The position numbers were made by a program, and so were the translations under genes. This document shows, piece after piece, positions 1,463 through 28,235 of a DNA stretch of 34,332 nt (its first letter is position 1; each line of letters opens with the position of its first letter). The notes below the pieces were generated by a model. The model made no database searches, was not told the DNA's origin, and worked only from the letters and a program-made list of their open reading frames with translations. This stretch comes from Armatimonadota bacterium (GTDB lineage Bacteria; Armatimonadota; UBA5829). Location: the NCBI GenBank assembly GCA_012522575.1, contig JAAYKE010000020.1, forward strand, positions 1-34,332. Reading direction: 5' to 3'.

Positions 1463-2212
1463 CTAATGCTCCTCGTTTTCCATGACGCCGACCTGCAGTT
1501 GAACGTCTGCGCGCTCCTCAATTCTCTCTACATAACCGTCTCGAATCCACACAATGCGGTCGGAGATGTCGAGCATCTTGAGGTCGTGGGTCGCGGGGAT
1601 GATAGTTACATTGTTCTCCTTATTGAGCTTCTTGAGCAGGTCGATAATTTCCTTGCCCGTCTTTAGGTCGAGGTTTCCAGTAGGTTCGTCGGCAAGGATA
1701 ATGCTAGGTGCATTGGCCAACGCCCATGCGCATGCCACGCGCTGCTGCTGTCCGCCGGAAAGCTCCGTGGGCTTGTGGTGGTAGCGATCCCCCAGCCCCA
1801 CCATATTGAGCAGTTCCATTCCGCGCTCATTACATTCATCCTGAGACAGCCCCGCAAATACCATCGGCAGGGTGACGTTTTCCAGGGCAGTCATAACCGG
1901 AATGAGGTTAAAGCTCTGAAATATATAGCCGATTGTGCGACATCTAAGGAAAGCGAGTTCCTGAGCATCGAGCTGAGCCATATCCACGTCATTGATAAAC
2001 ACAGTGCCATCTGTCGGCTTATCAAGACCGCCGACCATATTGAAAAGCGTGGACTTGCCGGATCCGGACGGGCCCATAATGGATATGTATTCGCCCTTGT
2101 AGATATCGAGCTGGATTCCCTTCAGGGCGCGCAGCGTCTGGCCGCCCATAGTGAACTCTTTTACGAGGTCCTTTGTGCGAACTACATATTCTTTCTTATC
2201 AACTGTTGCCAT
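1463..2212 (-). CDS. LolD/MacB-type ABC transporter ATP-binding protein
   Basis: This 249-residue cytoplasmic ATPase powers an FtsX-type permease. Visible motifs are Walker [10 protein letters not shown] (47-55), a Q-loop at YIFQSFNL (about 97-104), signature LSGGQQQRV (151-159), Walker B IILADEP (171-177) and the switch histidine in ATHD (near 209). The sequence after the signature reads [10 protein letters not shown] instead of the more usual ARALANDP, a small deviation. A start at 2212 is supported by AGAGGT about 9 bases upstream. It lies 31 bases after the 623-residue permease and is the only ATPase in the run. It therefore probably serves that permease, and perhaps also the giant permease at 7564-13812. 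LolD and MacB relatives extrude lipoproteins, peptides or drugs; the substrate here is unknown. Confidence 0.93.
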
Positions 2213-2243: not shown

Positions 2244-4115
2244 TTATATTTCCGAACGCAGCGCCATCGCCGCAGGCATCCTTGCAGCCTGCATAGCCGG
2301 CAGTATTGTAGCCACCAAAGTCAGCACCATTCCGGCCACAACACATACGCCCAACGAACCAAGGACCAGCCACGGATTCATAGTGGCCACCACATCCCAG
2401 CCCTTGGTAAATCCGGCGAGCAGAACCATAGAAACAAAGCCCAGCAGCCAGCCCAGCCCCGATGCGCATATTCCGAGGAGGCTGGACTCCAGAACAAGCA
2501 GCAAAACAACAAAGCTGTCAAGCGCGCCCAGACACTTCATCGTGCCTATTTCCTTGAATCGTTCAGTAACAGCCATCAACATACTATTGGTGATACCCAC
2601 CATGCACACCAGCAGGGACATGCCAACCAGCCACCACATTCTGTAGAAACTGTTGATATCCGGGATAAACACATAGTCCCCGCTTACCAAAGGAGTAGCC
2701 GCAGCCAGCGCAGGCTCCCTGTTCAGGTTCACTTTTACTTTGCGACCGTCAGCGTTGACGATCATCAAATTGCCAAGGTTAGCCGACTTCGCATCAGGGC
2801 CTTTGCCCTCGTCGAGCGCCTCTTTGAGACTGATGGAATAGGACTTCGCCAGCTTATCAATGGCAGCCTGCGGAGCCGTATCAAAGATCGCGTTGCGGCT
2901 CACTCGCGCCGTCCAAATCTTTATCCAGCGCGGGTGATCTTTGATCAGATCATTAAGGGAACTGCCCTTGAACGCCTTGCCGCTGCCCGCCAGTTTCTTT
3001 GCGATGGCGATCGGGATGTCGGCGCGAACAGCATCTTTGATGGTGATATCCTGATCCAGCGCCGTCGCCAGATATATGGGCTTGATGCCATCGGTTTGCT
3101 CTCTGAATATATCTATCAGGTCTGCGCCCTTGAACGTAGGGTATTGCGAGGCCATTTTTTCGGCGACTTTTCTGGGCAGTCCCGCTTTAACCGCCTCTTC
3201 GACCCGAATATCTTTTTCGGCGGCCATATCCGCATAAACGGGCAGAACCTTTCGCAGGTTGTTTACATATCTGAACTCCGTCCAAAAGTCCGGGTTCTCG
3301 TCGAGCACTTTGGCCAGCAACGTCCCTCTGAAAGCGCCCGGTTTAGGGGGTGGCGGGCCGGAGTCTTCTGACTCTTCTTCATCTTCAATTTCGCGCGGCA
3401 CAGCCATCACCGCATCGACCAGGTCTTTCGGGATACCCGCGCTTATGGCCTGGGCAGGGGTGATGTCCTTGTTCAGAGCCGTGGCAAGGGTGATGCTATC
3501 GGGCTTGCCTGTGCGTTGAAGTTCTTTGAATAGCCTGGCCCACTCGATAGTCTCTCCGTGCACCACAGCCTTTGCGACGATTGCCTTCGGGACTCCCGCC
3601 TTGACAGCGTCGCCGATCTTAATATCCTTGCCGCCGAGAATATCCACATACAGCGGCAGGTCCTTTTCGTATTTAGAAAGGGATTGCCATTCTTTTTTGA
3701 CCCTGGCCAGGTTGCGCACCGCCCGTTTTTCCTGAAGCTGGCCCTGGATTATCTCCGTCAGGCTGAAGTTGTTGCCATCCTTGAGCTGGACTCGTTTGAT
3801 CACTTCTTCGGGAATACCCGCCTGCACGCCCGCTTCGACAGGGACAGGTTTATACACATCATAGTCCCCAGGGCCGTTGATCTGGCCGTCGAGCCGTATG
3901 AATCCGGCATCAACTTTTGGAGCGACCGGCCACTGCATAAGCCATTGCGTAAGCACGGTTGCAAGGAATGCAATGCCCAGAAAGATGCCACCGGCTGTTA
4001 CCATCGACCGCCAGAATCGAATCCGGAGACTATTCATACTAATTTTGAAAGCGCGTCCCAGCGGTAGCTGGGCCTGTCTTCCCACGGTGGTCTTATTTGC
4101 GCTTGTTGTTGACAC
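2244..4115 (-). CDS. FtsX/MacB-type ABC permease with a repeat-built external domain
   Basis: The 623-residue protein has MacB-like topology: one membrane helix near residues 40-60, a large external domain (about 61-490), then three helices (about 491-515, 535-568, 585-607). The C-terminus is family-typical, ILPAMQAARMPAAMALRSE. In place of a standard MacB periplasmic domain, the external part contains five copies of a KDI..AV.AGIP motif, with the AG(I/V/L)P core at 99, 173, 226, 311 and 365 (ADIP). Residues about 141-236 and 279-376 form a clear tandem duplication. An acidic then proline-rich linker (EDEEESED, GPPPPKPG) sits near 244-260. The start is GTG at 4115, with GGGAGG upstream. It overlaps the end of the PqqD-like gene by 23 bases, suggesting translational coupling. 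Confidence 0.88.
   Translation of the reverse strand: MSTTSANKTTVGRQAQLPLGRAFKISMNSLRIRFWRSMVTAGGIFLGIAFLATVLTQWLMQWPVAPKVDAGFIRLDGQINGPGDYDVYKPVPVEAGVQAGIPEEVIKRVQLKDGNNFSLTEIIQGQLQEKRAVRNLARVKKEWQSLSKYEKDLPLYVDILGGKDIKIGDAVKAGVPKAIVAKAVVHGETIEWARLFKELQRTGKPDSITLATALNKDITPAQAISAGIPKDLVDAVMAVPREIEDEEESEDSGPPPPKPGAFRGTLLAKVLDENPDFWTEFRYVNNLRKVLPVYADMAAEKDIRVEEAVKAGLPRKVAEKMASQYPTFKGADLIDIFREQTDGIKPIYLATALDQDITIKDAVRADIPIAIAKKLAGSGKAFKGSSLNDLIKDHPRWIKIWTARVSRNAIFDTAPQAAIDKLAKSYSISLKEALDEGKGPDAKSANLGNLMIVNADGRKVKVNLNREPALAAATPLVSGDYVFIPDINSFYRMWWLVGMSLLVCMVGITNSMLMAVTERFKEIGTMKCLGALDSFVVLLLVLESSLLGICASGLGWLLGFVSMVLLAGFTKGWDVVATMNPWLVLGSLGVCVVAGMVLTLVATILPAMQAARMPAAMALRSEI
2988..3281 (-). repeat. 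Second copy of an internal duplication in the FtsX permease
   Basis: This encodes residues about 279-376 of the permease. It aligns with residues 141-236 (3408-3695). Shared landmarks are LP.YAD....KDI, AVKAGLP, then LATALDQDI and ADIP at equivalent spacing: 54 residues between the two cores here, 53 in the other copy. Boundaries are approximate. Confidence 0.7.
3408..3695 (-). repeat. First copy of an internal duplication in the FtsX permease
   Basis: This encodes residues about 141-236. Landmarks are DLPLYVDILGGKDI, AVKAGVP, then LATALNKDI and AGIP. The corresponding cores of the two copies are about 138 residues apart. Confidence 0.7.
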
Positions 4116-4601: not shown

Positions 4602-5510
4602 TCAGGGCGCAATTATCGAATCGCGTATCTTTTCGGCCACATGCGCATTTGCCGAGTGCGTGACTCTCACGCTGAAGAGTCGATTGGCCTCAGGCTGATG
4701 CCACACAAATCCGGTCAGCAGACTCGGAAACGGGTTCAGGGTCAATGAATATGCCAATGCTTTGACCGCAGAGACAATTCCCTTGCGCCGCCCGCTAATT
4801 CTAAGCCCCTCGCCTCCCGCTATGGTCTCGGCCTCGACGCTGACCGTATAACCCTTTATATCCGGCATTGCATCCTTGCGATACCACGTCGCCATATCGT
4901 CTTTGGCGAGCAATGTGCCGGCCAGTCCCCATCGCTCGACCACAATGGTATGCGCCCCTTTTTTATAGTTGAGCGCCAAATATCCCGACATCAAGGTCTG
5001 TTTCTGAATGCCGTATCCCGGCGGTATCGCGAATCCGAGTCCGTAAAGGCCCCATTCGACCCACCCGTCATCGCGATGATCCCTAATCGAATCCAGTATT
5101 TCAGACGCTGTTTTGGAGACGTTTTCCTGCCGGGTCGATATTACCTGCGCGATCATCATACGCTCGCACTGCGGGCAGTATACCAGTTTGCCCTGTCCCA
5201 GTCGATCCGATCTCCAAAGGAACCGCACCGAATATGGGTCTGCTTTATCGACCTTTATATCCTTATCGAATTTGAGCTTTTTCTTGCGAGCGGATTTCTC
5301 TATGTTCGCCAAAAACTCTTTGGCCTTCGCCTCCAGATCCGGTCCCTTGCCGGATATTTTTTCCCATTTTACTTCCAGCGCCGATGCGATAGGGCTGTCT
5401 ACTCTGAAATAGCCTTTTCTCGTATCGCCATTAACTCCGACCAGACTCCAGTCAGTCGGTGCATCGACCACAATTCCTTGCCAGCCCACAGGGGCGGTAT
5501 TTAACGCCAT
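4602..5510 (-). CDS. Duplicated two-domain soluble protein, possibly PsbP/DcrB-like
   Basis: The protein is 302 residues, without signal peptide or membrane helix, so probably cytoplasmic. I do not recognise a named family. The two halves (about 1-147 and 151-302) look like tandem copies. Each begins with a beta segment leading into AP.DW or PPGYG, followed by GYFRV or GYLAL, a strand ending KW or ERW, and a closing helix: ILDSIRDH in the first, KIRDSIIAP in the second. This order of strands and a final helix recalls the PsbP/Mog1/DcrB fold, which is an inference. The first half carries CPQC (112-115), a possible metal or redox site; the second half has WHQPE at the matching place. It lies between the OPT-like and PqqD-like genes in the same run. 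The ribosome site is weak. Confidence 0.8.
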   Translation of the reverse strand: MALNTAPVGWQGIVVDAPTDWSLVGVNGDTRKGYFRVDSPIASALEVKWEKISGKGPDLEAKAKEFLANIEKSARKKKLKFDKDIKVDKADPYSVRFLWRSDRLGQGKLVYCPQCERMMIAQVISTRQENVSKTASEILDSIRDHRDDGWVEWGLYGLGFAIPPGYGIQKQTLMSGYLALNYKKGAHTIVVERWGLAGTLLAKDDMATWYRKDAMPDIKGYTVSVEAETIAGGEGLRISGRRKGIVSAVKALAYSLTLNPFPSLLTGFVWHQPEANRLFSVRVTHSANAHVAEKIRDSIIAP

Positions 5511-7563: not shown

Positions 7564-10500
7564 CTACGCCGGCGCGGCTTCGCCACTCGCTGACGGATGA
7601 GCCGTATCAGTAGTAGCTGTGAGATATTTTTCTCGCTCGTCGGCGCGCATTGTCCTCCAGATGAGGAACTGTTTGCGCAGCGTATTAAGGAAGCGTCTGT
7701 TAACGCGCTTCCAGTTTGATATGTCTCCGCTCTCTCGTGTGATCAGCAGATTGACCTCGAATACGTCCTCCATCGCGGTAGGCTCCGTACTGAGGGTGAC
7801 CAACTGGCTGACTCCAAGGTCGAACGGGGCAAGCCACGCCTTACACGAAATGGTATGCGCAGTGCCAAATTCATTGCTCGCTTCGCCGGCTTTCACGTCC
7901 TGAGTGACAAAGTCTCCTATGGAATACTCCTCATAAGCTCCGAACCACTCCTGCAGGAATCCGTTGACGCCCTTTGCCTGCGCTCCTGTAACCGCAAAGG
8001 GCAGCGTGATTCTCCAGTTGTCCCCATCCGGCTCAGGAACCTTCCAGGAGCGATCGATAGCCGGAGTAGCGACCTCGGAGGCCTTTCTTGCAGGATACAT
8101 CGTGCTGAGCAGAACGACCGCAACAACCACCAAAGTCGAGCTTACCGCCGACATAGAAGAGAAGTTGAGATACAACCCCGGCAGCCAGCCCGTTGCGCTT
8201 AGCACCTTGCTGACCGTCTGGCCAATTACATAACCGGCAACTGCGCCGAGGTTCGCATATACCATTGATTCGGCAATGAACAGAATCGCGATATGGTTAG
8301 GAGCCAGGCCGATAGCGCTGAAGATGCCGATCTCCCGAACGCGCTCGAATACCGATCCGAGCATGGTGTTGAGAACGATCAACGCCGCGATCAGCACAGG
8401 GATAAAGACGTTACTGAATCCCTTTGAGGCACTTGAGCCGATTGAGCTGTAGCGATAGATCGAGCTTCCCACTCCCGCGTAGAGGTTCAATCCCAGCCTG
8501 GGCATCAACGAATCGAGTTGATCCTGCACTTCCTCGGCTGTCGCATATTTTATGGCGATAGACTTCAGCTCGCCGCCGATTCCCATCAGCGTTTCGTATG
8601 GCACGATGAAGCAGTTGGCTGGCTCGTGGTGCACGTATTCTCTAAACCCTGCCTCGCCTCCGGATTGCTGGCCTCCCTGTTTGCTCATCAAAATGAAGTC
8701 AACAGGGGTCGTCGGCTCGTTATCGAGGTCCTTTATCTTTTTGAAGACGTCATTTTTGACGATGGCGATAACGGTATACTGCGCGCCGCCAAACATAACC
8801 TTGACCTTGCCGACATCGGAAGCGGTAATCGACAGTTTTTCGGCCATCGTATCCGGTATGATCATACTGAACGGATCGACCGGCCCATCAACTCGCTTGC
8901 CGTTTTTGTATCCGAACCAGTCCCCTGCCAGAAACGCTCTCTTATTGGAGGTTTCGAGGTCCATAATCTCGGCCTCGTCCGGTAACATTCCGACCGCAGC
9001 GCGAGCATCATAGCTGAACTTACCCTTGCGCACGGTGAGGAACGACTGCTCCCCGAGGGTAGTGCCAAAGAACCAGGCCCTTGGCGCGACGGGATAAACC
9101 TTGCCTCGCTTGCCCTCGTTGCCGAACTCATCTTTGAGCAATCTGTAGGCGATCTCCTGCTGAGATTCCCACATCGCTCCTCGGATCATAATGCCGTCGT
9201 AGATATGCGTGTCGGCGTCCTTGCGGGCAGGGACCTTGTTGAACCTGAGCGTCGAAACAATCGAAGTAAACGAAAGCACGGTAAACGTGAGCAGCACCAA
9301 CGTGATGCATGTGAGCACCGTTCTTGCTTTTCGCCGCCTCATGTTCGAGATACCCAGCGAGAATGCAGCAGCGGCCACGCTCATTCGACCAATGTCGGCC
9401 TTGTGAACTCCGCTGACAGAGCGATTGAACTGCTTAAGCTGCTCCTCGAATTTGCTGGTTACAATAAATATGACCAGAATGCTGAGAGCAAGCATGATGA
9501 ATGCGATCAGGATGATAAAGGAGTTGCCAAGCAGCCTGAACGCCGGGTGCACGAGGTAGAACACCAGGAAGATGAACGCAAATATAAGGAAGAACGCAAG
9601 AATCTGCTTATACAAATCCGGGAACGCAAAGAACAAGCGCTCGATAAAGAATGCAAACGGCAGAATCAGGAACAGATAGAAGATGACTCCGTTTACAACG
9701 TCCTGAGCGGTGCTGAATATCCCCGGATAGGCTCTGGCTTCGTATCCCCATGAAGCGCGGCAGTAGGAGTCAAAGACGCTGTAGTTTAAGCTGCCTTTAG
9801 CTGCGTCGGCTCTATTGAGCAGTTTTTTGGCCTGACCGTGGAGTTCGCTAAGTCCCTCATTGATAATGCCCTTATCCTCGAGACCCGACAGTCTATACTC
9901 GTCGATATTCCACATGTCATTGGCGACTTTGTATGCTGTTTCATTGAGCGTGCCGCCATCGCTGACGTCATAGCCTATGCCCTCAGGGGCCGGCATCGGC
10001 TGCACGAAAAGCTGCTTCGTCCCTTCGGGGAGCGGCTTGGTGAGCTGAATTGCGCCATGCAGCAGCGACGGGTCGTTGTAGGCAAGTTTGAACTGGCAGT
10101 AGTTAGCGCCCTGGCACTTCTCGTCCGTAAAGACACCCTGCACGAATACCTGCAGCGGGTCGCTCACAGATACGAAGCGGGCGGCAGTGGCCTCAAACGG
10201 ATCCATTGCGCCGGTCTTGATCCAGACGGACTCCGACTTAGGCATCTGAGTCAGAATCGGCCCGCCATCCGGCAGCGAATTCTCCTGGCCGGGTTTCATA
10301 TAGTTGACGCCGGTACATTTCTTGTTGTCGTAGACGCCCTTTACGCGCGACCGCACAGGATTGGCCCCGACGTCGGCTTTATTGGCTACCGTGACGATAT
10401 TGGCCGGCAGTATCTTGTCATCTGAGGTCTTAACGTAAACCTTTGTTACATCCGGAACCAGCTTGACCGGAAGAGCATCCCCCGGCTTCCAGTCCCTGTG

Positions 10501-13500
10501 GAGCTTTTTGGTGGTATCTCGCACATATTTGCTGTCAGGGAAGTCCGCCGGCACGCAGATATCAGCGCTGCCCAGGCTCCTTGCCAGATTCTCATTGAGC
10601 GAAGTCAGGTAGTAATCCCTGCCCTTGCACTCCTCATCCAGATATAGTCCCTTGGCAGTGACATACCATGGCTTGTCAATTGTCAGTATCTTAAACGGCT
10701 TGGCCGGCATTATGAGGAACGGCTCTGCGCCCTCCGTGCCCTGACGGATATTGACAAATACATAATCCAGCGAGACCGGCACGGGGTGTGGGTCTGGAGT
10801 GGACCTGGTCGGCTCATATATATTTCGATCAATGCTGACAATGCCAGCCAACTGCAGAGCGGAATCGGCCCCGGTGAGGTCCCTCAAATAGAAGTTCTTC
10901 GACCTATCCTCTCCGTAAGCTGTGCCCTTCTTGACCGCCTTATGTATGCCGGATATCTCAAACTGCCAGGCAGGAGTAGTCGGCAAAGCCCTCACATAGG
11001 AGTCGGTTATCGTTGTGGGAATAACTTCGTTATCAAGGGTGGAGTTCAGCAGCAAAAGCCTGTTTGCAGCCGGCCCCGCACTCATAATCATCTTGAGTCG
11101 AATGCGCTTTGTATCGGTAGACTGCGCGGCTTTTTGTCCGCTTTTGACCGTATCTTCGGTAAAGATATCGGCCATATCCTCAACGTGCGGGTTCTGCGGT
11201 TCCGGCACGGCAACTGCGACGCCGAACTGCTTGGGAGCGGCGTTGGTGTCCCCTTCATATATACTCATCCCGCCCAGCGCCCTCAGTGACTGCGGGTCGA
11301 TGAGGTCATATATCGAAGTCGCCTTGCAGTGGAAGACGATAATGGGCATATCCTTGAAGCCGGTCGTGATGGGGAAGCTGGTGGGATAGAACTCACCGTA
11401 AGAACCCTGATCCGGCGCGCAGATAATATCCCCGTTGACCGGGTCGAGCTTATATGCGCCGATGGATGTCGGCTTTTGGAAGCCATACGCCGTCAGAGGA
11501 GCAACGCCCGATATTTCGAAGTAGCCCTGATCCCTGGAAGGGTTGCGGGAGTCAAATACCGGCGTAGTCTTGTCGATAATGTTGGCGCGAACTCCCATAA
11601 ACGATTTATGCGGGCTGCGCACTACCGCCAGGCAGTCCCCTACTCTGAGGTTGGGCACAAAGCTCTTGCGAGGGTCATATTGGACAACGTTGCCGCTGAG
11701 CCTCGCAAATCCGCCCTGAAGTCCCATTCTGGTAAACCTCGACGGATCCTGCGAACCGAACTTTGTAATGGGTTTATGCAGAACGTAGACCGTCTTCGTC
11801 CCCGTAGGCAAAGACTCGGTCAGCCTGATTGAACCGTCGGCCTTCGCCGCAAGCTGCTTTTCGTCCCTGGGCTTGTAATAAGTTTTACCCTTGGCGTTCT
11901 TACTGACAAATACGCCGCGCACATAGCCCAAAGTCAGCGGATCCGATACGCGGATGCTCTTTGAATCTATAACGCTGGCGGTCATAATCTCTTCGTCGAG
12001 GGTGAGGTTGGAATCGTGGAACCACTGATCGATGAGACAGCCCAGCAGCGTCACCTGCTTATTGAGGTTTTCGATATTGACCTTGTCGCGCGTATCGAAC
12101 GGCGTGTCGGTCATCTGGCGACCGTCGTCAATCGATACGAACGAAACGCCCTTGCCACCCGCAAGCGTGACAACCTCGCTGTCGAGTGCAAATTTACCGG
12201 GAATAAAGTTACGCCAGTTTTTGCCGGATATGGGGTTGACGCCATCAGCAAATCTTGAGGCTTTGTCGTCGAAAAAGCCCAGAGCAGCGGCTATTCTCTC
12301 GGAATTCTCACGGCTGCGTCCCGCAATGTCGGAGAACTTGCCCTGGATATCCTCTCGATAGTCGTAGAAATATCCCTTGTAGAATAACCCAACTCCCTGA
12401 GTCTGGCTGCTGAGGTCAAGGCCACTCCACAGATAGTAATCCCTGGGCTGGTTGACCGGGGCATAGCCCTTTGCCAGCCTGGCGTATATCCCGCCAGTGC
12501 CGCATAGCGACAGAACCAATAACAGCACGGGCAGACCAACGATCCACGGCTTTTCCTCGCGCGCCAGTTGCACTCTGCGCCATGTCCTGCCCACGAACCA
12601 AAGCAGAATCAGCAGAACCAGAATTGAAACAGCAGGGGCTGTCCAGGTTTTTCCGCTGGCCGGGAATGTTTTTGCAAGCCAGATGCTCAGACCGCTCGGC
12701 GCGACATAGGAATCGATATGGCCTTCCATGTACGACCGCATACCTGCCAGTCCCTGATAGTGCCCGCTGGTGGCTATAAACATAACCGATCGCTTCGGCG
12801 CAAATCTGGGGTCTTTGTAGAGTCGTGCAAGTTCGAGCAGTCCCGATACTCCGCACGTCGCCTCGGCGCTTGGAGCGAGAGACGGAACCACAGAGGTCCC
12901 ATCGTATGAAGCATGCAGAACAATCCACTGCTTTTTGAGCTTGGGGTCGGAGCCTTCGATCTCACCTATGATGTTTCTTGCTTCAACTTTTTCCCAAGGC
13001 ATCTTGCAGAATACCCGCGCTTCAAGCTGCGGTCGCTTGGAGGCATCGATATCCTTATATTTGGCATCAAACTCAGAGAGCATCGCCCTGATCCGGGCTG
13101 CGTGATCTTTCGAAATCCAGAACCTCGGCATCGACACCGGTATGGCGCTGAACTTGGCTTCCGCCTCGCCTCGCATGGTGGAATCCGGTTCGACAAACAG
13201 CAGCACCTTAGCGCCGAGTCGCGGCGCATTCAGCCACTCTGTGCCGGAATTGAAATCGACCAGTGCTGCGCTGCCTGCGACAACCTTGGAGTCAAAGTCC
13301 GGCAGCCGTCCGCTCTTGCCATCGATAATATGCACCGAAAGGCCCTCCGGAGGCAGATGGCTGGTGCGGACGAGGTTCGGCCACAGCGCATAAATCGGAA
13401 TCTCGCGGCCATTGATGACGATTTTGGATCCCTGGTCAATCGGGACAGTAACCTTAAACTTTTCGGCCTTAACATTGGAAAGCCCAATGCTGCGGAACTG

Positions 13501-13812
13501 CTTCTCCACATGGTCGGCCGCCTGCTCGCATCCGGGATAGCCCACCACGCGAGACGGATAAGCCGACAATGTGGTTACATCATCCGCAATGCGTCCTGAA
13601 TCGATGGATGCGGCGATTTCTCTGTAGCGGTCCTTGACTGCAGCGGCGCAATCCGGAGTCGGCTCCGCCGGTTTGACTACTGTCTTTGCGGCTCTGACAA
13701 CTTCCTGTTTGCCTTGTCCGGGCAGATAGTTCCAAAAACATAATACAAGAAAAGTCAGAACGATTATCGCAAGGATTAATATATTGGAGGTTCTATATTT
13801 ACTGATCGCCAT
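7564..13812 (-). CDS. Giant FtsX permease fused to a degenerate M28 peptidase domain
   Basis: This protein has about 2082 residues. A membrane anchor lies at 10-28. An M28-like domain with a PA-type insert follows (about 60-370), then two membrane helices (about 394-408, 424-440), and the M28 C-terminal part resumes (about 540-600, DTPFDTRDKVNIENL). A long beta-rich extracytoplasmic region (about 615-1290) holds four copies of a small module. Next come hydrophobic helices (1370-1452), an FtsX helix (about 1495-1520) and an external domain. FtsX helices at about 1800-1900 contain FERVREIGIFSAIGL. A soluble tail of about 180 residues ends the protein. The M28 metal and catalytic residues are mostly replaced. 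The ATG at 13812 is preferred because GGGGAAGGAG precedes it and a membrane anchor follows at once. An ATG at 13848 adds 12 residues but has no ribosome site. Confidence 0.9.
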   Translation of the reverse strand: MAISKYRTSNILILAIIVLTFLVLCFWNYLPGQGKQEVVRAAKTVVKPAEPTPDCAAAVKDRYREIAASIDSGRIADDVTTLSAYPSRVVGYPGCEQAADHVEKQFRSIGLSNVKAEKFKVTVPIDQGSKIVINGREIPIYALWPNLVRTSHLPPEGLSVHIIDGKSGRLPDFDSKVVAGSAALVDFNSGTEWLNAPRLGAKVLLFVEPDSTMRGEAEAKFSAIPVSMPRFWISKDHAARIRAMLSEFDAKYKDIDASKRPQLEARVFCKMPWEKVEARNIIGEIEGSDPKLKKQWIVLHASYDGTSVVPSLAPSAEATCGVSGLLELARLYKDPRFAPKRSVMFIATSGHYQGLAGMRSYMEGHIDSYVAPSGLSIWLAKTFPASGKTWTAPAVSILVLLILLWFVGRTWRRVQLAREEKPWIVGLPVLLLVLSLCGTGGIYARLAKGYAPVNQPRDYYLWSGLDLSSQTQGVGLFYKGYFYDYREDIQGKFSDIAGRSRENSERIAAALGFFDDKASRFADGVNPISGKNWRNFIPGKFALDSEVVTLAGGKGVSFVSIDDGRQMTDTPFDTRDKVNIENLNKQVTLLGCLIDQWFHDSNLTLDEEIMTASVIDSKSIRVSDPLTLGYVRGVFVSKNAKGKTYYKPRDEKQLAAKADGSIRLTESLPTGTKTVYVLHKPITKFGSQDPSRFTRMGLQGGFARLSGNVVQYDPRKSFVPNLRVGDCLAVVRSPHKSFMGVRANIIDKTTPVFDSRNPSRDQGYFEISGVAPLTAYGFQKPTSIGAYKLDPVNGDIICAPDQGSYGEFYPTSFPITTGFKDMPIIVFHCKATSIYDLIDPQSLRALGGMSIYEGDTNAAPKQFGVAVAVPEPQNPHVEDMADIFTEDTVKSGQKAAQSTDTKRIRLKMIMSAGPAANRLLLLNSTLDNEVIPTTITDSYVRALPTTPAWQFEISGIHKAVKKGTAYGEDRSKNFYLRDLTGADSALQLAGIVSIDRNIYEPTRSTPDPHPVPVSLDYVFVNIRQGTEGAEPFLIMPAKPFKILTIDKPWYVTAKGLYLDEECKGRDYYLTSLNENLARSLGSADICVPADFPDSKYVRDTTKKLHRDWKPGDALPVKLVPDVTKVYVKTSDDKILPANIVTVANKADVGANPVRSRVKGVYDNKKCTGVNYMKPGQENSLPDGGPILTQMPKSESVWIKTGAMDPFEATAARFVSVSDPLQVFVQGVFTDEKCQGANYCQFKLAYNDPSLLHGAIQLTKPLPEGTKQLFVQPMPAPEGIGYDVSDGGTLNETAYKVANDMWNIDEYRLSGLEDKGIINEGLSELHGQAKKLLNRADAAKGSLNYSVFDSYCRASWGYEARAYPGIFSTAQDVVNGVIFYLFLILPFAFFIERLFFAFPDLYKQILAFFLIFAFIFLVFYLVHPAFRLLGNSFIILIAFIMLALSILVIFIVTSKFEEQLKQFNRSVSGVHKADIGRMSVAAAAFSLGISNMRRRKARTVLTCITLVLLTFTVLSFTSIVSTLRFNKVPARKDADTHIYDGIMIRGAMWESQQEIAYRLLKDEFGNEGKRGKVYPVAPRAWFFGTTLGEQSFLTVRKGKFSYDARAAVGMLPDEAEIMDLETSNKRAFLAGDWFGYKNGKRVDGPVDPFSMIIPDTMAEKLSITASDVGKVKVMFGGAQYTVIAIVKNDVFKKIKDLDNEPTTPVDFILMSKQGGQQSGGEAGFREYVHHEPANCFIVPYETLMGIGGELKSIAIKYATAEEVQDQLDSLMPRLGLNLYAGVGSSIYRYSSIGSSASKGFSNVFIPVLIAALIVLNTMLGSVFERVREIGIFSAIGLAPNHIAILFIAESMVYANLGAVAGYVIGQTVSKVLSATGWLPGLYLNFSSMSAVSSTLVVVAVVLLSTMYPARKASEVATPAIDRSWKVPEPDGDNWRITLPFAVTGAQAKGVNGFLQEWFGAYEEYSIGDFVTQDVKAGEASNEFGTAHTISCKAWLAPFDLGVSQLVTLSTEPTAMEDVFEVNLLITRESGDISNWKRVNRRFLNTLRKQFLIWRTMRADEREKYLTATTDTAHPSASGEAAPA
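9991..10176 (-). repeat. Module copy 4 in the giant permease
   Basis: Residues about 1213-1274 contain VSDPL, VQGVFTDEKCQGANY, then IQLTKPLPEGTK and a strand ending in proline. It matches copy 1 (11770-11955) most closely, including the leading VSDPL and the LP.GTK turn. Confidence 0.7.
10198..10371 (-). repeat. Module copy 3 in the giant permease
   Basis: Residues about 1148-1205 contain VKGVYDNKKCTGVNYMKPG, then ILTQMPKSESVWIKT. The GV(Y/F)....C.G.NY signature is shared with copies 2 and 4. Confidence 0.65.
10549..10677 (-). repeat. Module copy 2 in the giant permease
   Basis: Residues about 1046-1088 contain VTAKGLYLDEECKGRDYYL. It is shorter and more divergent than the other copies, but keeps the G(L/V)(Y/F)....C.G..Y signature. 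Confidence 0.55.
11770..11955 (-). repeat. Module copy 1 in the giant permease
   Basis: Residues about 620-681 contain VSDPL, VRGVFVSKNAKGKTYYKP, then IRLTESLPTGTKTVYV. The cysteine found in copies 2-4 is alanine here. Confidence 0.65.
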
Positions 13813-13959
13813 TCTCCTTCCCCTAGGTGAAATGGAAAAGGATTCCATCCGATGTGACGCGCCCTACAATCAACGCAAAACATACGGGAATCTTGAGACG
13901 CCTTCAAAATTCGAATTGCCCGAAGTGGAGTAACCGACGATAGGCAATCGCGTTGATGC

Positions 13960-23012: not shown

Positions 23013-25367
23013 CTATTTGCGTACTTTCCTTGCATTAACGATCGCCTCTGCCACCTGGCTTCTTTTTGCGCGAACCGATTGCGGCGATTTTGTGAAGTTG
23101 CTCAGGCTCCCCACCAGGTCTGTTCCTATATCCATCGCCTTTTCCGCTTTTACGAGCGCCTGTGCAGCCGCAGGGCCGGATAGCTTCTTCAATCGTTGGA
23201 TTTCCTGTTCCAAGACCCAAAAATACTCGTAGTCCTCGATGCCGTCCCGGATATTTTCCAGCCTGATTGTGGGCAGCGGGCCATGAGGGCCAGCGCAAAT
23301 TATACTGCCGTCGCCGTTATTATCCCAGAAACTGGCAGGCGGCCAATCGGTGTATGGGCCAAACGTGATCGGCTTTTTGGTAAGCGGCCATCGCATCATG
23401 GCGTAGTAGAGATATCCATCAGGTCGATATTTGGCGGTCTGCAAACCCATCAGAACGCGGGCGTCAATGGCGTCATACTCTATCAGCCAGTTTGCCCACG
23501 GCTCTTTCGGTGAAATGCAGGTATACCACCAGATCTGCTTGCCGCGTGCGCGTGCGTCCTCGACGCGCTTGAGATCGTATTTCGGGGTCAGCGGACACCA
23601 CGCATCCATCGCGTCGACTTTGCTGGTGATACCGAACGTGTCGTCATATCCGGTGGTCAGCGTCAAAAGGTCCGGGTGGCGTCTCTTGACCTCGCCAAAG
23701 ATGTCCTGCATAGCGGAAAAAGACTCCGGGCCGATCTCATCGAAGCCGTATAGATATGCCTTATCGAACAGACCATTAGCGCGGAGAAGAGCCACAGATT
23801 CATCGACTTTTCTCAGCAGCAACTCTCTTTGCTCAGCGGGAAATGGGTCTCCCGCCTTGATGCCATCGGGCTTCTGAACATAGAGGATATTGAACGCGTT
23901 CAGGCCCTTTTTGTCCCATCGCTTGAGGCTCTCAATCGGCGGCATCTCCGGTCGGTAGATGTTGTCCGGGTTTATGCGATAGGATAGCACGAAGTCTTCG
24001 TATTTCTGCCGCATAGGCTCGGTCAATTTGCCGTAGGCGTAGGGCAAATACACGTCATACAGGGACATCGCAGTTCGCAGATGACGTTCCTGCGGCACGT
24101 CAAAATCCCACACGCGCACTTTTAGAGTTAGTTTGACAGGGTTGACGTCAGCGGCTTTTACGGTGACCTGAGCTTTATATTCCCCCGCAGGAGTTCCGGC
24201 AGGCGCGGTGATTCGAATCCATACCGGCTGCACTTCGCCTTCTTTGATGTTATAACCTTTAAGGAAGTCCAGAATCGGGTCAGGATGCCAGCCGACGTAT
24301 TTTACAGGGTATGGCGGTCTTTGCGTTTCAACAAAACCTACCGGGGACGCCTCGACGGTCGGGCCCGGCTTGCCGTTTTTCATCAGCGCGCCAACCGAGA
24401 CATTCGCGCCTTTCAACTCACGGTCGAACGCATATATCAGCAATTGGATGGACTCGGTCTCGTTGCCCGCAAGCTCAACGGTTGCTTCATTATCGGCGCT
24501 GCAAGTGAATCCCACATCCTTGGGGAATATCTTCTCCATGCTCGACGCCCACCCACAGGCAAGCGCAGCATTGGGATCGCTCTTCCTTGCAGATCTGCGC
24601 AGCTTTGCCTCCGTAACGGCGCGTGCGGCATCTCTTCTGACGCGATCTCTCAGAGCAATTACATCCGGCCTTATTTCGGCAAGATCGGAAGCGCTTTTAG
24701 CTTTGGAGGCTTCGTTCATAAGAACGCCATACTGCGCATCCAGACTGGCCATAATATGGGTCATCTCTTCGGGATATTGCCTGGCTTCTTTGCGCAGAGT
24801 TTCTATGCTGGCTCCTATGGCCTCCAACCATCGCGGCACGCCGTTTTCGAGTCGAAGATTGGCGACCACGAGCGACATATCATCCGGCGGTCGGGTGCCG
24901 TGGATATGTATCTGCCATATTTGCGAAAGGTCCAATTTGGCGGGAGCAACTTCAAAAGCCATCTGAACGGCCCTGGTCTCACCCGGAGCGATAACCTCGC
25001 TTGCGGTCAGAGAAGCCCCTTCAGGGTCGCGAATATACATCAACACGGTGCAGGTTTTATCACCCACATTGCGAACATCGCAAACGGCGAAATCGTAGTC
25101 CGTAAAGTCTTTAGGCAGTCCCTTGTCGTTGGTAAGGATTGCCGCAGGCCACTGCACGGAATCCTGCTGCCACTTGGGAAAGAATATGGAAGCTGTTCCG
25201 TCTGCGTTGGCAACCATAGAGGACGGCGGAGTAGACTCGCGCACGTCAAATCGCTCGACATCGGACGGCTTGTCAAAATCACACAAAACCAGAGCGCCAA
25301 TGGGTAAAGCGGCAGCGGACACTGCCAGCGACAGCATAATTATTGCAAAGCAAAACAGTTTTCTCAT
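23013..25367 (-). CDS. Secreted GH123/DUF4091-like glycosidase, copy 1
   Basis: The 784-residue protein has a signal peptide (about 1-20, ending AAALP). Then come a beta-sandwich like a carbohydrate-binding module (about 25-175), a helical linker (about 178-262), a second beta domain (about 285-420), a barrel domain and a DUF4091-type C-terminus with GPHGPLPTIRLENIRDGIED (693-712). The barrel contains YGFDEIGPE, with Asp543-Glu544 matching the catalytic Asp-Glu pair of GH123 beta-N-acetylgalactosaminidases. It probably cleaves a glycan outside the cytoplasm; the substrate is uncertain. GGGGAG lies 7 bases before the ATG and a perfect TATAAT about 40 bases upstream. It is collinear with the next gene over its whole length. 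Confidence 0.88.
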   Translation of the reverse strand: MRKLFCFAIIMLSLAVSAAALPIGALVLCDFDKPSDVERFDVRESTPPSSMVANADGTASIFFPKWQQDSVQWPAAILTNDKGLPKDFTDYDFAVCDVRNVGDKTCTVLMYIRDPEGASLTASEVIAPGETRAVQMAFEVAPAKLDLSQIWQIHIHGTRPPDDMSLVVANLRLENGVPRWLEAIGASIETLRKEARQYPEEMTHIMASLDAQYGVLMNEASKAKSASDLAEIRPDVIALRDRVRRDAARAVTEAKLRRSARKSDPNAALACGWASSMEKIFPKDVGFTCSADNEATVELAGNETESIQLLIYAFDRELKGANVSVGALMKNGKPGPTVEASPVGFVETQRPPYPVKYVGWHPDPILDFLKGYNIKEGEVQPVWIRITAPAGTPAGEYKAQVTVKAADVNPVKLTLKVRVWDFDVPQERHLRTAMSLYDVYLPYAYGKLTEPMRQKYEDFVLSYRINPDNIYRPEMPPIESLKRWDKKGLNAFNILYVQKPDGIKAGDPFPAEQRELLLRKVDESVALLRANGLFDKAYLYGFDEIGPESFSAMQDIFGEVKRRHPDLLTLTTGYDDTFGITSKVDAMDAWCPLTPKYDLKRVEDARARGKQIWWYTCISPKEPWANWLIEYDAIDARVLMGLQTAKYRPDGYLYYAMMRWPLTKKPITFGPYTDWPPASFWDNNGDGSIICAGPHGPLPTIRLENIRDGIEDYEYFWVLEQEIQRLKKLSGPAAAQALVKAEKAMDIGTDLVGSLSNFTKSPQSVRAKRSQVAEAIVNARKVRK

Positions 25368-25407
25368 TTGTGACTCCCCAAGTTCTTATTAAATCGTTAG
25401 ACACGAG

Positions 25408-25413
25408 ATTATA
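25408..25413 (-). promoter_or_regulatory. -10 element before glycosidase copy 1
   Basis: A perfect TATAAT lies on the minus strand, about 40 bases before the start codon. No convincing -35 hexamer is visible. Confidence 0.35.
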
Positions 25414-25474
25414 TCTTCCCTTCCTTTGAAGCGATTTTACGTAACAGCTCACCAATGATATCTAGAGGTTGGAA

Positions 25475-25493
25475 GTTAGAGGTTAGAGGTTAG
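25475..25493. repeat. Short 7-base tandem repeat
   Basis: GTTAGAG is repeated about 2.6 times. It forms the left edge of the repeat-rich gap between the two glycosidase genes. Confidence 0.6.
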
Positions 25494-25496
25494 GGA

Positions 25497-25630
25497 AGCA
25501 GATTTCTCACTACGTTCGAAATGACAAGGGTTGACGTTCGAAACAACAAGGGTTGAGGGCAGAGGCCGTCCATTGCGCACGAATGCGTCCGGTAAATTGT
25601 CATTCCGAGGCGAACGCCGAGGAATCTGCT
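25497..25630. repeat. Inverted-repeat intergenic element (MITE/REP-like)
   Basis: The left arm (25497-25527) starts AGCAGATTTCTCACTACG and ends AAATGACAA. The right arm (25597-25630) starts TTGTCATTCCGAGGCG and ends GAGGAATCTGCT, matching the left arm in reverse complement with a few changes. The outer flanks (GGGAAG; TTTTTCCC) continue the symmetry. Short repeats of this TGTCATT...ATCTGCT type occur as dispersed intergenic elements in several bacterial phyla. Inside lies a 22-base tandem duplication (25513-25534, 25535-25556). No gene is present in 25368-25793. Confidence 0.7.
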
Positions 25631-25690
25631 TTTTCCCTTCCCTTTTCTGGGTTTCGCTTCTTTCGGGCTTTCGCGATTTACGGAAAGAGG

Positions 25691-25718
25691 TTCGGACCTC
25701 GGACTTCGGACCTCGGAC
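25691..25718. repeat. Perfect 14-base tandem duplication
   Basis: TTCGGACCTCGGAC occurs twice in a row. It is itself built of near-identical 7-base pieces (TCGGACC or TCGGACT), pointing to slippage. Confidence 0.75.
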
Positions 25719-25722
25719 ATCG

Positions 25723-25759
25723 AAAAAAGCATATGGGCGGCGATGGCATATCACCGCCC
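25723..25759 (-). terminator. Intrinsic terminator after glycosidase copy 2
   Basis: On the minus strand a 10-base stem, GGGCGGTGAT with ATCGCCGCCC (one T-G pair) and a 5-base loop, is followed by ATATGC and six T. It starts 35 bases past the stop codon. This ends the pentose/glycosidase transcript before copy 1 starts. Confidence 0.75.
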
Positions 25760-25793
25760 GCGCTTAACACGTAAATTGCGTTATTTGGCCAGC

Positions 25794-28154
25794 TTATTTG
25801 CGCACTTTTCGGGCAGCCAGTATCGCCTCGGCGACCTGTCGTCTCTTTTCGCTGAGAGCTTGCGGGGATTTCGAGAAACTCCTCGTGCTCTCGACAAGGT
25901 CATCGCCGATAATCATTGCCCTCTGCGCCTTATCCAATGCACCGGCAGCCGCAGGGCCGGATAGTTTTTTTAGGCGATTGATTTCCTGTTCGAGCAGCCA
26001 GAAATACTCAAAGTCCTCCAGCCCGTCGCGGATATTTTCCAGCCTAATTGTAGGAAGCGGCCCATGCGGCCCTGCGCAGATAATGCTGCCGTCACCATTC
26101 GCATCGTGGAAACTGGCTGCCGGCCAGTCCGTATATGGCCCGAAGGTGATCGGCTTTCTGGTCAGCGGCCAGCGCATCATCGCATAATAGAGATAGCCAT
26201 CCGGGCGAAACTTCGCCGTTTGCAGACCCATAAGTGAGCGAGCATCGATGAGATCGTATTCGATCAGCCAGTTCGCCCACGGAGCCTGCGGCCCGATGCA
26301 GGTATACCACCAGACTTGTTTGCCTCGAGCGCGCGCCTCCGCAACGCGCTTGAGATCATATTTCGGAGTGAGCGGAATCCAACCGTCGATAGCATCGACC
26401 TGACTCGCAACGCCGTATGTGTCATCATAGCCGGTCGTAGTTGTCAGCAGATCAGGATGTCGAGCCTTGATCTCACTGAATATATCCTGCATGGCAGCAA
26501 AAGATTCCGGCCCGATCTCGTCGAAGCCATACACATAGGCCTTATCATAGAACCCGTTTGCCTTGAGCAGCGCGACTGATTCATCGATCTTTTTCAGCAA
26601 CTCTGCTTTGCGCTCGGCAGGGTATGGCTCACCTTTTTTTATGCCGTCCGGCCTTTGCACGTAAAGGATGTTGAATGCATTGAGGCCCTTTTTGTCCCAA
26701 CGCTGCAGGCTCTCGATAGAAGGCATCCCTGATCGATAGATGTTGTCCGGATTGATGCGATATGAGAGCACGAAGTCCTCATACCTCTCCTGCATCGTCT
26801 GCGACACCCGCCCTTTTCCATAGGCATTTGGCAGGAAATTGTCGTAAAGGGACATCGCCGTGCGCAGGTGGCTTTCTTTGGGCACGTCAAAATCCCAGAC
26901 GCGCACTTTTAATGTAAGCTGTGTCGGTTGTACGCCGTTCGCTTTTACTGTTATGGGAGCCGTATAGTCTCCCGCAGCAACGCCGGCAGGTGTGGTGACG
27001 CGAATCCAGATCGGCTGCACTTCGCCTTTTTTGATGTTGTAGCCCTTCAAAAAATCTAAGATAGGGTCAGGATGCCATCCGATATATCGCACAGGGTATG
27101 GCGGCTTTTTTGTCTCCACAAAGCCTACAGGAGACGCCTCAACAGTCGGACCCGGCTTGCCGTTTTTCGTCAGAGTCCCAACGGATACGCTCGCGCCATT
27201 TAGATCCTGGCCGAACGCATAGATCAACAGTTGGACGGATTCAACTTCATTGCCCGCCAGCTCCACCGTCGCTTCTCGTGCAACGCTGCATTCAAACGCG
27301 ACATCTTTGGGGAATATCTTAACCATACTCGACGCAAATCCACAGGCGAATTTCGCATCAGGGTCCAACTTTCGGGCGGCGACTCGCATTCGAGCCTCGG
27401 GAATCGCACGCGCGGCTTCTCTGTTGACCTGATCATGCAACGCTATTACATCGGGTTTGATCGCGCCAAGCGCAGCAGCGTTGGTCGCCTGGGAAACTCG
27501 ATTGATGAGAAGGCGATGCTGTGAAGAATAATGATTCAGCAGAGGGTCTATTTCGGAGGCGTACTCTCGAGATTCGCTGCGCAATTTTTGTATCGCCTCC
27601 GCGATTTTTTCCAAGCGCGGCATAACGTTGCTTTCCAGTCGGATATTGTCGATTACAAGTGACATATCATCCGGCGGACGAGTGGCATTTACATGAAACT
27701 CCGAGATGCGTTTGAAGTCCAACTTGGATGGCGCGACCTCGAAATCCATACGCAGTTGTTTCAACTCTCCGGGCTTAATGACGCCGCTGACGGAGTAATG
27801 CTCCCCATCGGGATCACGAATATACAGCGACACCGTGCAATCTTTGGTCCCAACATTGCGAACATCGCACAGGGCATAGTCATAATCAGACCAGACCTGC
27901 GGCATGCCTTTATCGTTAGCATAGATTACCGCAGGCCACTCCTCGGAGCCTTGCTGCCACTTTGGAAAGAAGATAGACGCGGTTCCGTCTGCATTGGCAA
28001 CAAATGAGGATGGCGGATTGGTGGTGCGGACGAAAAACCGATCTACATCGGAAGCATTTTCAAAGTCACACAGAATAAGCGTGTCGATCGGAGCGGCGAT
28101 GGCAACCGATACCAGCAACGTAAATAAGCAAGCGTAACGCAGGACTCTGAACAT
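25794..28154 (-). CDS. Secreted GH123/DUF4091-like glycosidase, copy 2
   Basis: This 786-residue protein is a full-length paralogue of copy 1, with the same domain order and long shared blocks such as FVANADGTASIFFPKWQQ (51-68). The signal peptide is about 1-20 (MFRVLRYACLFTLLVSVAIA). The catalytic-type pair Asp545-Glu546 in YGFDEIGPE is kept, as is the DUF4091 C-terminus. The ATG at 28154 is preferred because AAGGAG precedes it and the signal peptide starts there; an ATG at 28214 would put a non-signal stretch in front. It follows ribulokinase by 81 bases, suggesting pentose-containing or related glycans are degraded together. Its own terminator follows. Confidence 0.88.
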   Translation of the reverse strand: MFRVLRYACLFTLLVSVAIAAPIDTLILCDFENASDVDRFFVRTTNPPSSFVANADGTASIFFPKWQQGSEEWPAVIYANDKGMPQVWSDYDYALCDVRNVGTKDCTVSLYIRDPDGEHYSVSGVIKPGELKQLRMDFEVAPSKLDFKRISEFHVNATRPPDDMSLVIDNIRLESNVMPRLEKIAEAIQKLRSESREYASEIDPLLNHYSSQHRLLINRVSQATNAAALGAIKPDVIALHDQVNREAARAIPEARMRVAARKLDPDAKFACGFASSMVKIFPKDVAFECSVAREATVELAGNEVESVQLLIYAFGQDLNGASVSVGTLTKNGKPGPTVEASPVGFVETKKPPYPVRYIGWHPDPILDFLKGYNIKKGEVQPIWIRVTTPAGVAAGDYTAPITVKANGVQPTQLTLKVRVWDFDVPKESHLRTAMSLYDNFLPNAYGKGRVSQTMQERYEDFVLSYRINPDNIYRSGMPSIESLQRWDKKGLNAFNILYVQRPDGIKKGEPYPAERKAELLKKIDESVALLKANGFYDKAYVYGFDEIGPESFAAMQDIFSEIKARHPDLLTTTTGYDDTYGVASQVDAIDGWIPLTPKYDLKRVAEARARGKQVWWYTCIGPQAPWANWLIEYDLIDARSLMGLQTAKFRPDGYLYYAMMRWPLTRKPITFGPYTDWPAASFHDANGDGSIICAGPHGPLPTIRLENIRDGLEDFEYFWLLEQEINRLKKLSGPAAAGALDKAQRAMIIGDDLVESTRSFSKSPQALSEKRRQVAEAILAARKVRK

Positions 28155-28235
28155 TAACACTCTCCTTGGGATGCTGTTTACGATATTAGGCAAGTAAACG
28201 GCCGTTACCTTCACGGCGGCAAAATGAGCCAGCCG

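Follow-up and report, generated by a model that had tools for sequence, protein, structure and literature searches.

The question raised by contig JAAYKE010000020.1 of an Armatimonadota bacterium (assembly GCA_012522575.1, positions 1 to 34,332 of the forward strand; this whole stretch of 34,332 nucleotides is called the window below) is what a peptidase-like domain with an altered catalytic site is doing in a giant membrane permease of the ATP-binding cassette (ABC) type. A sequence-only reading, made without database searches, had described the product of the gene at 7564–13812 as an FtsX permease built around a catalytically dead M28 peptidase domain. The results described here suggest a different answer: the giant protein and its neighbours look like an undescribed peptide-handling machine, in which the peptidase site appears to have been rebuilt. 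The host genome comprises 3.06 Mb, and the relatives that were compared are records of Armatimonadota, a phylum that has received little study.

The presence of an M28 domain was supported by several lines of evidence. The Pfam model Peptidase_M28 (PF04389) matched residues 280–363 with 28.2 bits (cut-off 21.3). When a profile of 41 homologues, covering residues 46–620, was searched against the PDB, aminopeptidases were retrieved (2ek8, 3e-23; 6hc6, 3e-19; AAP more weakly), together with the nonpeptidase relatives transferrin receptor 1 (7e-12) and nicalin (1e-9), while nicastrin reached only 0.4. The AF2 model of the M28 stretch was confident (mean pLDDT 89.6, pTM 0.85), and its nearest solved folds according to Foldseek were the PA-domain M28 aminopeptidases 2ek8 (4.8e-22) and BSAP from B. 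subtilis (3.1e-21), followed by transferrin receptor 1, a Shewanella M28 protein, PaAP and GCPII. The giant protein has a genuine M28-type domain with a PA insertion; the fold proposed earlier was borne out by Pfam, by the PDB profile search and by AF2 with Foldseek alike, and so was its fusion to an FtsX permease by the Pfam matches. The interruption of the fold by two membrane helices, also described before, is real in the window protein; such a hairpin is lineage-specific, being present in only part of the family and missing from many relatives.

The other half of the protein is a MacB/LolC-type FtsX permease. Pfam FtsX (PF02687) matched residues 1803–1912 with 52.8 bits (cut-off 25.5; 4.9e-14), and a profile of the half from residue 1276 onwards matched MacB (2.7e-17), LolF, YtrF and LolC in the PDB; the membrane bundle begins at about residue 1370. 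The basic N-terminus suggests that the M28 domain, which follows the first helix, would be extracytoplasmic. As for membership in the Type VII (mechanotransmission) ABC systems, the FtsX core is present and an ATPase of the MacB/LolD/FtsE class is linked to the giant gene in 26 of 40 genome regions. Two other FtsX permeases of the same genome (L132 and L134) would be ordinary MacB-like proteins, judging from their sequences.

In AAP, the residues His97, Asp117 (bridging), Glu152, Asp179 and His256 are the metal ligands and Glu151 is the general base. The corresponding positions were found from an alignment of the family profile to conventional M28 proteins encoded in the same genomes and from the PDB profile alignments. 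Conservation was counted across 60 homologues, which come from many of the phylum's families, with identities to the window sequence down to 34%. The motifs ASYDG (301), SAEATCG (315), SGHYQGL (349) and DTPFDTRDKVNIENL (569), on which the sequence-only reading was based, were all located where it had put them. Its assignment of the bridging aspartate to Ala316 had to be corrected, since the profile alignments open a one-residue gap just before it and arrive at Glu317, which is acidic in all homologues. From the canonical five ligands, Asp179 alone is kept; Asp117 has become Glu or Asp, and His97, Glu152 and His256 are replaced, as is the general base Glu151, for which His was found in 60 of 60 sequences. 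The exchange of His256 for Asp569 was seen also in the PDB profile alignments (vDTPfDT versus yHTPnDT). An aspartate at position 304 is present in every homologue, and among 257 ranked positions of the M28 domain, positions 351 and 466 showed zero variation.

With this set of residues, the two-zinc aminopeptidase site in its known form is predicted to be unable to form. The earlier description of a dead scaffold holds insofar as nearly all relatives lack His97 and Glu152 and have Asp in place of His256; "simply dead" is not an adequate wording, since Asp466 is kept throughout and His351, Glu/Asp317 and Asp569 are almost invariant phylum-wide. Likewise, inspection of the same positions in homologues showed that the canonical set is not intact there, but that the replacements are themselves conserved. 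Since these substitutions are near-fixed even among distant homologues, the site does not seem to have decayed, but to have been remodelled with new residues and maintained by selection. The histidine deserves some caution: AAP structure 2anp carries His at the position of Glu151 (sequence AAHEVG), and the title of a 2005 paper by Bzymek reportedly calls the E151H variant functional, so that His351 alone is no proof of inactivity. The loss of His97, Glu152 and His256 would be a stronger argument for lost activity. One homologue (L040, 11893–13350) has retained the histidine of an AHYD motif (His302) alongside His351, Phe352 and Asp569, and is perhaps an intermediate or a reversion.

The distribution of the giant protein is closely matched by that of an oligopeptide-transporter-like (OPT-like) membrane protein encoded next to it. 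The former was found in 200 and the latter in 195 of 291 Armatimonadota genomes; both were present in 190, the giant protein alone in 10, the OPT-like protein alone in 5 and neither in 86, in counts which ignore shared ancestry. Gene linkage was determined in the 40 regions mentioned above, some of which stop at contig ends and three of which duplicate other loci. The OPT-like gene adjoins the giant gene in 33 of them. Genes for the ATPase and for a second, small FtsX protein accompany it together in 26, in two different gene orders, the pair being upstream of the giant gene in some families and downstream in others. At the gene level, the pairing of giant and OPT-like proteins is not obligatory. 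Two genomes contain second giant copies (L059 and L061, on G264:C38 and G246:C28) which have no adjoining OPT-like gene and which have kept His351. In the window's own family, both proteins are missing from several mostly near-complete genomes (G235, G236, G237, G240–G242 and G244), a patchy joint loss.

These observations are best accommodated, tentatively and at less than an even chance, by an Armatimonadota Type VII ABC complex in which peptides, or molecules that carry them, are caught by a pseudo-peptidase ectodomain and handed over to the OPT-like transporter. In Type VII systems ATP moves parts outside the membrane, and a periplasmic partner commonly sets the function, which is a hydrolase in the case of YbbAP-TesA (PMC12646458); nicastrin has an M28-type ectodomain serving as a substrate receptor (PMC2647162). 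Because of these two precedents, combined with the OPT-like neighbour, peptide capture and hand-over is the simplest account. In such a complex, the permease would be the giant protein paired with its small FtsX partner, the LolD-like protein would be the ATPase, and the rebuilt M28 domain would lie outside the cell membrane, without a two-zinc aminopeptidase site. The invariant acidic and histidine residues Glu317, His351, Asp466 and Asp569 would form a cluster in the old active-site pocket. There they could hold a peptide or lipopeptide by its amino terminus or by a different cationic group, and one metal ion may take part. Movement of the permease, powered by ATP, would then open or close the ectodomain, and the cargo would be released to the OPT-like neighbour. 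Regarding the ligand, "peptide or glycan sensing, or substrate capture" had been suggested previously; the peptide part is plausible and would fit the OPT-like neighbour, while nothing specific to glycans was found.

Several points weigh against the capture and hand-over of peptides. The OPT label is poorly supported in the window, whose own OPT-like protein has no Pfam match; 2 of 24 OPT-like members matched PF03169 (best 7.7e-8), and a search of the PDB with the family profile gave no match. The clustering of the four pocket residues was deduced from M28 templates, the co-occurrence of giant and OPT-like proteins is uncorrected for shared ancestry, and in 7 of the 40 regions the giant gene is without an adjacent OPT-like gene, although both proteins are present in most genomes.

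The main rival is a remodelled hydrolase, in which Glu317, Asp466 and Asp569 would hold perhaps a single metal ion and His351 would act as the base, the substrate being extracted and cut in a manner similar to YbbAP-TesA. The complete invariance of His351, of Asp466 and of an acid at position 317 would be expected of such an enzyme, and the E151H form of AAP, whose reported activity was mentioned above, has been crystallised. YbbAP-TesA (PMC12646458) provides a precedent for a hydrolase served by a Type VII permease. However, His97 and Glu152 are gone from practically every member and Asp has taken the place of His256, which leaves the known dinuclear site unable to form, and the prevalent Phe at position 352 puts a bulky hydrophobic side chain where a ligand should be; this explanation is considered unlikely.

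Somewhat more doubtful appears a purely structural or docking role, by which the domain would position a partner protein as in transferrin receptor 1, with the pocket unused. That receptor is close in both the fold comparison and the profile search, and it too has a PA-type insertion. Yet the pocket residues are among the most conserved of the domain, as shown by the ranking of positions given above, which would not be expected of an unused pocket.

The similarity to Lol proteins could also indicate an Armatimonadota-specific lipoprotein-sorting machine of the LolCDE type, with the M28-derived domain as the periplasmic chaperone-docking part. The best NCBIfam model for the ATPase is LolD (4.2e-68), the permease half retrieved LolC and LolF, among others, from the PDB, and the presence of two dissimilar permease subunits is reminiscent of LolC and LolE. 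But the score of the LolD match (229.2 bits) is below its cut-off of 307.75, LolC gave 18.7 bits against a cut-off of 473, and thus the curated cut-offs for LolCDE were not reached. In addition, a third of the phylum does not have the giant protein, among them near-complete genomes from the window's own family, and lipoprotein sorting gives the OPT-like partner no role. Such a function is therefore regarded as improbable.

A relationship of another kind was found with PADLOC. The C-terminal half matched the model PDLC01991 (CARF_LolE_TM) in 39 of 39 members scanned, with 181 bits and 7e-54 for the window protein and 1e-66 for the best member, which is far beyond a generic FtsX match; CARF_Beta-galactosidase_LolE_TM was matched as well. 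The transmembrane bundle, the FtsX core and a post-permease domain are shared with these CARF_m8 proteins, the best alignments covering about positions 28–684 of 810; among the matches listed, those to CARF_LolE_TM stop at or before about position 700. The giant protein thus differs by the absence of the last ~125 profile positions, presumed from the PADLOC family name to be the CARF sensor, and by an M28 domain in place of their ectodomains. The likeness suggests a larger family whose ectodomains can be exchanged. A role in defence, as a membrane effector or sensor related to these ancillary proteins of CRISPR type III, is nevertheless very improbable, since the presumed sensor is missing, a scan of window proteins identified no cas gene, and most defence genes do not show such conservation in one operon throughout a phylum.

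Table 1. Position of the giant gene, its domains and active-site residues, and the neighbouring genes of the operon within the window.
Feature	Position	Strand	Basis or residues found
Giant pseudo-M28/FtsX permease gene, 2082 aa	7564..13812	-	Open reading frame scan, Pfam
N-terminal transmembrane helix, residues 8-26	13735..13791	-	Hydropathy
M28 domain first half with PA-type insertion, residues 60-385	12658..13635	-	Pfam, profile, AF2, Foldseek
Two-helix membrane hairpin within M28 domain, residues 390-442	12487..12645	-	Hydropathy
M28 domain second half, residues 456-605	11998..12447	-	AF2 model, profile alignment
Conserved extracytoplasmic region, residues 606-930	11023..11997	-	Homologue conservation; no family match
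Lineage-specific insertion, residues 931-1275	9988..11022	-	Homologue alignment
Permease half (transmembrane bundle, FtsX core, conserved C-terminal domain), residues 1276-2075	7588..9987	-	Profiles, PADLOC
FtsX C-terminal permease domain, residues 1803-1912	8077..8406	-	Pfam
Ser302, zinc-ligand position of AAP His97	12907..12909	-	Tyr 49, Phe 6, Ser 3, His 1, Asn 1 of 60
Glu317, bridging position of Asp117	12862..12864	-	Glu 54, Asp 6 of 60
His351, general-base position of Glu151	12760..12762	-	His 60/60
Tyr352, zinc-ligand position of Glu152	12757..12759	-	Phe 51/60
Asp466, zinc-ligand position of Asp179	12415..12417	-	Asp 60/60
Asp569, zinc-ligand position of His256	12106..12108	-	Asp 56/59
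OPT-like membrane protein, 657 aa	5554..7527	-	Homologue profile; Pfam in some members
Soluble 302-aa protein	4602..5510	-	AF2 PsbP/Mog1-like fold; probably two tandem domains; conserved CxxC
Second FtsX permease	2244..4115	-	Pfam; large insertion here
LolD/MacB/FtsE-type ABC ATPase	1463..2212	-	Walker A, signature and Walker B intact

The positions are summarized in Table 1. An in-frame alternative Met 12 codons upstream of the Met at 13812 would extend the open reading frame to 7564–13848 on the same strand. Much of the giant size is due to the lineage-specific insertion, where relatives have a median of ~1 residue. A profile search of the PDB with residues 606–930 gave no match.

The four other genes of the operon are all downstream of the giant gene and on the same strand. 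For the 302-aa protein, sequence-based searches gave no family; its AF2 model (pLDDT 89.8) resembles PsbP and Mog1, and the protein is cytoplasmic-looking and conserved in the operon. The second FtsX permease is minimal (about 200–270 aa) in most relatives, as opposed to the window copy with its large insertion. The remaining gene products in the 34-kb window (sugar ABC genes, a GH123 pair, PPDK) look unrelated to the giant protein. At 23013–28214 there are two adjacent GH123-like glycoside hydrolases; with a sugar ABC transporter, a PIG-L deacetylase and an FGGY kinase nearby, the region is likely to serve the use of amino sugars or glycans.

In a plasmid collection, only generic M28 or FtsX matches were found for the giant protein and none for the OPT-like protein. 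A scan of genome contigs with a single-sequence query yielded near relatives only, which says little about other phyla, and restriction to the phylum is not claimed. Literature searches pairing FtsX with M28 gave nothing relevant.

Compared with the PA-domain M28 aminopeptidases YwaD/BSAP of B. subtilis (6hc6) and 2ek8 of Aneurinibacillus, the domain has the same overall fold, PA-type insertion, Asp179-like ligand and position of the DTPxDT segment, but differs by the replacement of His97, Glu151, Glu152 and His256, by the fusion to a permease and, in some members, by the hairpin insert. Transferrin receptor 1, nicastrin and nicalin are likewise membrane-anchored M28 folds without the normal catalytic set and without peptidase activity; they are, however, eukaryotic and outside ABC permeases, and the comparison with them was at the level of profile matches. 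With MacB, LolC/LolF, YtrF and YbbP, the FtsX core and the associated ATPase class are shared, whereas the M28 ectodomain in the same chain and the OPT-like and PsbP/Mog1-fold partners are not. YbbAP-TesA is also a Type VII transporter that works with an extramembrane partner of hydrolase fold, but TesA is an active, separate esterase (PMC12646458), while here the M28-derived domain is fused and lacks the usual catalytic set.

Taken more broadly, it is possible, though still short of probable, that an undescribed phylum-wide class of ATP-driven, peptide-handling Type VII ABC complexes exists, in which the M28 site has re-evolved to a conserved His/carboxylate site, either of a receptor or of a new hydrolase, and is coupled to an OPT-like transporter. 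A peptidase domain within an ABC permease would then have been rebuilt instead of just lost, its new residues being fixed across most of the phylum. A conserved gene set has been defined, and peptide binding in the old active-site pocket is a testable prediction. Function in the Type VII ABC superfamily is set by partner domains, and this one would be a new type of ectodomain there; it would also provide a bacterial parallel to nicastrin, the eukaryotic M28-type ectodomain which acts as a receptor.

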